In this document: positions 17,805 through 18,097 of the stretch, in pieces
Numbering within the stretch: the first letter of the stretch is position 1
Layout of the letters: the number at the start of each line of letters is the position of its first letter
Origin: an uncultured Lachnospiraceae bacterium
GTDB lineage: Bacteria > Bacillota > Clostridia > Lachnospirales > Lachnospiraceae
Direction: 5' to 3'
NCBI GenBank assembly: GCA_947631605.1
Contig: CANRMC010000013.1
Span: forward strand, 1 to 33,781
Length of the DNA: 33,781 nt
Notes under the pieces: generated by a model
Seen by the model: only the letters and a program-made list of their open reading frames with translations
Told to the model about the DNA's origin: nothing
The model's database searches: none
Made by a program: the position numbers and the translations under genes

Positions 17805-18097
17805 CTAGAGATATTTAAACATATCCTTCGCTTCGTCTTTTTTCGTAGTTTCGGCAATCATGGTAACTTCTGCTTTCACGGCTTTATTGCCGAAGGATAT
17901 TTCAATCACATCCCCGACTTTTACGTCATAAGACGCTTTTACGGTTTTTCCGTTTACACTGACTCTGCCCGCATCACAGGCCTCGTTCGCCACCGTCCGC
18001 CTGAGACGCGAACAATTCTGTGTGCTGTGGTACCGTTCTCCTCCACCGTCCGCCGTTTGATGAGGCGGGACACCTTCAAATATTTATCCAGACGCAT
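17805..18097 (-). pseudogene. rqcP: RqcP-like S4-domain RNA-binding protein gene, broken by a 53-bp insertion
   Basis: The gene begins normally ([26 protein letters not shown] before the ATG at 18097). After residue 18 the frame runs into unrelated sequence and stops 29 codons later. The proper continuation, [14 protein letters not shown] through DVIEISFGNKAV, resumes in another frame and runs to 17805. The break is 53 bp bounded by the 11-bp repeat GCGGACGGTGG (18043-18053 and 17990-18000). Removing one repeat plus the 42 bp between gives an uninterrupted 79-residue protein of normal length. RqcP (YabO) works with RqcH in adding alanine tails to stalled chains on 50S subunits. As read, the gene makes only a truncated product unless the segment is excised or bypassed, or is a sequencing or assembly artefact. 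Confidence 0.8.
17990..18053. repeat. 11-bp direct repeats bounding the insertion in rqcP
   Basis: CCACCGTCCGC on the plus strand occurs at 17990-18000 and 18043-18053 with 42 bp between. The offset of 53 bp is not a multiple of three and causes the frameshift. Confidence 0.9.

Follow-up and report, generated by a model that had tools for sequence, protein, structure and literature searches.

The rqcP gene of an uncultured Lachnospiraceae bacterium is interrupted by 53 bp, 52 of which exactly duplicate coding DNA of a TadE-like gene that lies on a different contig. It is probable that the gene was inactivated by a recent templated insertion via a microhomology-guided double template switch, a mechanism that we infer from the anatomy of the locus. 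The event would most likely be an ordinary mutation of a known kind, which is unusually legible here. The origin of the insert from the tadE-like gene is new information beyond the original prediction, which had described the interruption and its direct repeats. The window, that is the whole stretch of 33,781 nucleotides that was analysed, is contig C13 of a 2.34-Mb draft genome (189 contigs, 97% complete).

The interrupted rqcP gene

The frameshifted rqcP (yabO) gene is located at 17805..18097 on the minus strand. It starts with ATG at 18097 and ends with TAG at 17805, and its span of 293 bp is not a multiple of 3: codons 1-18 are intact and followed by the 53-bp insertion and by codons 19-79 in another frame. 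The actual frame from the rqcP start (17954..18097, minus strand) encodes 47 aa, 18 RqcP residues plus 29 foreign ones, and runs into a stop at 17954; with a stop after 47 codons, the reading frame of RqcP is not intact. The last 61 codons lie in a separate frame without internal stops. A C-terminal RqcP frame of 62 aa (17805..17993, minus strand) is still open from an internal GTG and encodes a partial S4 domain (PF01479, E=5.8e-8). This GTG lies right behind the insert with a purine-rich AGGCGG just upstream and is a putative start.

The insert is bounded by a 12-bp direct repeat, GGCGGACGGTGG. The upstream copy (18043..18054, minus strand) is the gene's own, and the first 11 bp (GGCGGACGGTG) of the downstream copy (17990..18001, minus strand) are also present in the donor. 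The original prediction had placed the interruption correctly, but had given the repeat as 11 bp (GCGGACGGTGG at 18053-18043 and 18000-17990), one base shorter than the maximal repeat.

The identity of the broken S4 gene as rqcP/yabO follows from the gene order SpoVT, HU, rqcP, YabP, YabQ, DivIC/FtsL-like, SpoIIE. Both direct neighbours are intact, the HU DNA-binding protein upstream (18178..18450, minus strand) and the YabP sporulation protein downstream (17473..17730, minus strand); beyond YabP are YabQ (17093-17476), the DivIC/FtsL-like protein (16720-17016) and SpoIIE (14570-16558). The closest named HU loci are nearly all from Lachnospiraceae. The rejoined sequence has the features of RqcP, an S4 protein of about 80 aa with Arg2 and Arg16 that is encoded beside hup and yabP.

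It had also been claimed that exact loss of the 53 bp restores the gene, and indeed the joined flanks encode a 79-aa RqcP that ends in MFKYL. A match to rqcP was found in 106 relatives (29 family genomes and 77 named records), two of which run off contig ends and were left out as incomplete. The rejoined protein aligns without a gap over residues 1-79 in the 104 complete relatives (in one of them over 1-77). Their proteins are 79 to 81 aa long, with the same length as the joined protein in 88 of the 104 and 80-81 aa in the other 16. The joined protein agrees with the consensus at every one of the 43 columns that are conserved to at least 90% (0/43 deviations). Since the rejoined RqcP is free of decay, the insertion event should be recent; apparently, rqcP was intact until recently and the insertion removed no base from it.

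A comparison with related strains had been proposed as a check. The insert is present in none of the 104 complete relatives, among which there is no second genome of the same species because the genus of the organism is represented by a single genome. In a family-wide BLAST, the two halves of rqcP were adjacent wherever both were detected. Exact-pattern scans of genome_contigs and viral_contigs, from which the genome of the window itself and very close ones may be missing, gave no match.

The donor and the junctions

A search of the genome with the rqcP gene revealed a second place, C6:30338-30395. Direct comparison showed that 52 consecutive bp of the insert (17991..18042, minus strand; read from 18042 to 17991) are 100% identical to positions 30344-30395 (plus strand) of contig C6 of the same genome. 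The donor is an intact gene, whose product of 255 aa is of the pilus-assembly type and combines a TadE domain (PF07811) with a YH...C...CxxC module at its C-terminus. Thus, the locus has what is expected of a templated insertion with respect to its source, a copy of another locus (52/52 bp) next to a donor whose 255-aa open reading frame remained open. Inspection of the TadE-like protein (C6:29685-30449) further revealed two tandem C-terminal YHxxxxC...CxxC modules that are likely metal-binding.

A homologue of the donor is present in 145 of the 150 family genomes sampled. Five residues encoded by the copied stretch (G221, Y224, H225, C230 and R235) are invariant in all 29 aligned donor homologues, and this conservation sets the direction of copying from tadE to rqcP: the stretch is native to the tadE-like gene and foreign in rqcP. 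The original prediction had suggested that the insert may be a diverged copy of rqcP itself, since its translation ends in SRLRRTV, close to SRLIKRRTV of the real gene. This is wrong, because 52 of the 53 bp are identical to coding DNA of the tadE-like gene on contig C6; the two peptides resemble each other by chance, over a stretch to which the 11-bp microhomology belongs. A transposable element with target duplication was also considered as the source and rejected, since the sequence occurs in only two places of the genome, one of which is the donor gene, and not as the multi-copy element with terminal inverted repeats that would be expected.

At the junctions, the donor reads ...ACCGGTGA AGGAGAACGG...TCTCAGGCGGACGGTG TATC, the empty rqcP ...AAACGGCGGACGGTG GCGAACG and the product ...GGCGGACGGTGG AGGAGAACGG...TCTCAGGCGGACGGTG GCGAACG. 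At the right junction, donor and recipient have the 11 bp GGCGGACGGTG in common, the microhomology for the return to rqcP and the longest string common to donor and empty site. At the left junction the common sequence is GGTG (4 bp), and the next base differs, being G in the product and A in the donor. Both sides of the insert thus have the microhomology expected at the junctions of a templated insertion, 11 bp on one and 4 bp on the other. An 11-mer of such composition is expected about 0.4 times by chance in the genome and was counted four times in 1.68 Mb, and therefore an 11-bp microhomology is readily available. That a random fragment would end in just the right 11 bp is very improbable, which makes pairing through the microhomology the natural explanation. 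The direct repeat is then the recipient's own sequence plus a chance match in the donor and not the target duplication of a transposon.

These features can be accommodated in the following sequence of events. In the course of replication or of the repair of a break, the strand growing on rqcP would leave this template at GGCGGACGGTG(G) or close by, and pair with the tadE-like gene on the other contig via a short common sequence. After 52 nt had been copied from there, GGCGGACGGTG would allow the strand to pair with rqcP again. Equally well, the polarity could be the reverse, with entry by the 11-nt match and exit by GGTG. In either case 53 extra bp would result, the recipient would lose no base and a direct repeat would be formed. 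Against the template switch speak the short microhomology at the leaving junction, just 4 bp (GGTG) before the G/A mismatch, and the requirement for two switches with a return to the same spot.

A variant of this explanation is that a free single strand was captured at rqcP, as in SPDIR; the origin of the copied strand is the only point of difference, and for this reason our estimates for the two overlap. The insert is a short intragenomic patch from an unlinked donor that remained unchanged, with microhomology at both ends, and all of this would suit an SPDIR-like event. However, no base of the recipient was lost and the repeat was duplicated, which would call for slippage or two sequential annealings. 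We therefore regard the capture of a free strand as unlikely and favour the double template switch.

Artefact, switch or bypass

Is the inserted DNA real? The original prediction had listed an assembly artefact among its options. In a self-comparison of the genome, overlaps of exactly 77 bp were found at four pairs of contig ends, which suggests that 77 was the final k-mer size of the assembler. One such pair is C7:1-77 and C43:17717-17793, and the overlaps may mark contig adjacencies. With only 11 bp shared by donor and empty site against a k of 77, a misjoin from ordinary reads is very unlikely and some physical molecule must have had the inserted sequence. What is left of the artefact is a chimeric read or fragment that arose in library PCR or amplification through a jump between templates and brought tadE sequence into the consensus while rqcP of the organism is intact. 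In-vitro chimeras do form by template jumping through short homology, a chimeric fragment in a thinly covered place of a draft of 189 contigs would give the same sequence, and the perfect conservation of the joined gene is what one would expect if rqcP were truly intact. However, a read that jumped twice and returned to the same site would have to outvote the normal reads, and there is no second rqcP allele in the assembly. We consider a chimera quite improbable and the insert to be probably real DNA.

In a self-BLAST over 1.68 Mb, no dispersed match other than the tadE/rqcP pair reached 50 bp with 95% identity once contig ends, a palindromic family and local repeats were set aside. No second comparable patch of at least 50 bp was found in this comparison; the rest were contig-end overlaps, palindromic repeats and local protein repeats. 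The palindromic family is itself worth mentioning. It consists of dispersed, apparently intergenic repeats of about 100-106 bp that are 95-98% alike and MITE- or REP-like, with the ends CTATGCAGGGAC...GTCCCTGCATAG or similar and the core CATATGAGCCGCCGGTTCTTAGCGAAC...; copies are at C2:13075-13180, C22:12005-12110, C74:80-179, C1:23438-23539 and C31:14928-15028.

A reversible on/off switch had been proposed as well, in which rqcP would be phase-variable, the segment between the repeats being inserted and precisely lost again. The exact loss of the 53 bp does restore the gene, slippage between the repeats could bring it about, and RecA-independent deletion between short direct repeats is known from E. 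coli (PMC5426353). Such a loss would be one-way, however, unless the sequence were copied anew, in another rare event, from a gene that is not linked to rqcP. The insert belongs to the coding DNA of a different gene and has no recombinase site, and neither both states nor recurrence were seen: none of the 104 complete relatives carries the insert and the assembly has a single allele. A programmed switch is thus unsupported and very improbable, and we give just as little credence to the idea that rqcP exists in both states in the population and that frequent repeat slippage turned a chance insertion into a mutable switch of alanine tailing.

Least probable of all is restoration of RqcP from the mRNA by frameshifting or by ribosome bypass of the T4 gene 60 type, for which the matching codons 53 nt apart and the intact downstream codons would speak, but the take-off site has no stop codon, the folding of the RNA is ordinary (z = -0.22) without the stable hairpin of gene 60, and the segment derives from coding DNA by copying and is unique to this genome.

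Among the options of the original prediction a dead gene, with a frame that stops at 47 aa, fits best. More generally, frameshifts seen in a single genome should not be read as switches.

Consequences and comparison with known systems

RqcP is truncated past residue 18 and the rest of the S4 domain is lost, and the product should be inactive. It retains Arg2 and Arg16, which matter in RqcP of B. subtilis (PMC8373112). The original prediction had recommended looking for rqcH, and RqcH is indeed open and of full length (580 aa) in the same genome; a homologue of YlmH and tmRNA were found too. Since these remain, the loss of RqcP is probably tolerated. It is also plausible that its effect is mild, because overexpressed YlmH restores alanine tailing in B. 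subtilis without RqcP (PMC11317155). As regards ribosome rescue, no more would follow than that RqcP may be missing from one strain in which RqcH, YlmH and tmRNA are retained.

The locus is of wider value as a clean and natural case of a short templated insertion in a bacterial genome, in which donor, recipient, direction and microhomologies are all readable. It also illustrates that what looks like an insertion between direct repeats may have arisen by ectopic copying, with part of the repeat contributed by the donor.

Compared with the S4-domain RQC factor RqcP (YabO), the joined gene agrees in its length of 79 aa, the conserved R2 and R16 and the order hup-rqcP-yabP-yabQ, whereas the gene in the window is frameshifted past residue 18. 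With T4 gene 60 bypass and repeat-mediated phase variation it has in common an out-of-frame segment between matching sequences, but it shows neither the required signals nor recurrence or reversibility. SPDIR as described by Harms et al. (2016, PNAS) reportedly replaces a segment of the recipient. The insert shares with SPDIR (a name also used in PMC7192050) the short intragenomic patch with microhomologies at both ends, but it is a net insertion with a duplicated microhomology, and the gap-free alignment with 104 relatives argues against a replaced segment. The closest parallel is the templated insertion of the MMBIR type, a model of microhomology-mediated template switching (PMC2621351). As there, an unlinked segment would have been copied to a novel junction with the donor unchanged, and the microhomologies of 4 and 11 bp are within the 1-30 bp found at rearrangement junctions in the Lac system of E. 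coli, which were attributed to template switching (PMC3161906). Unlike those events, the one proposed here, read from sequence alone, would be very short (52 bp) and would have returned to the same site without a large rearrangement.
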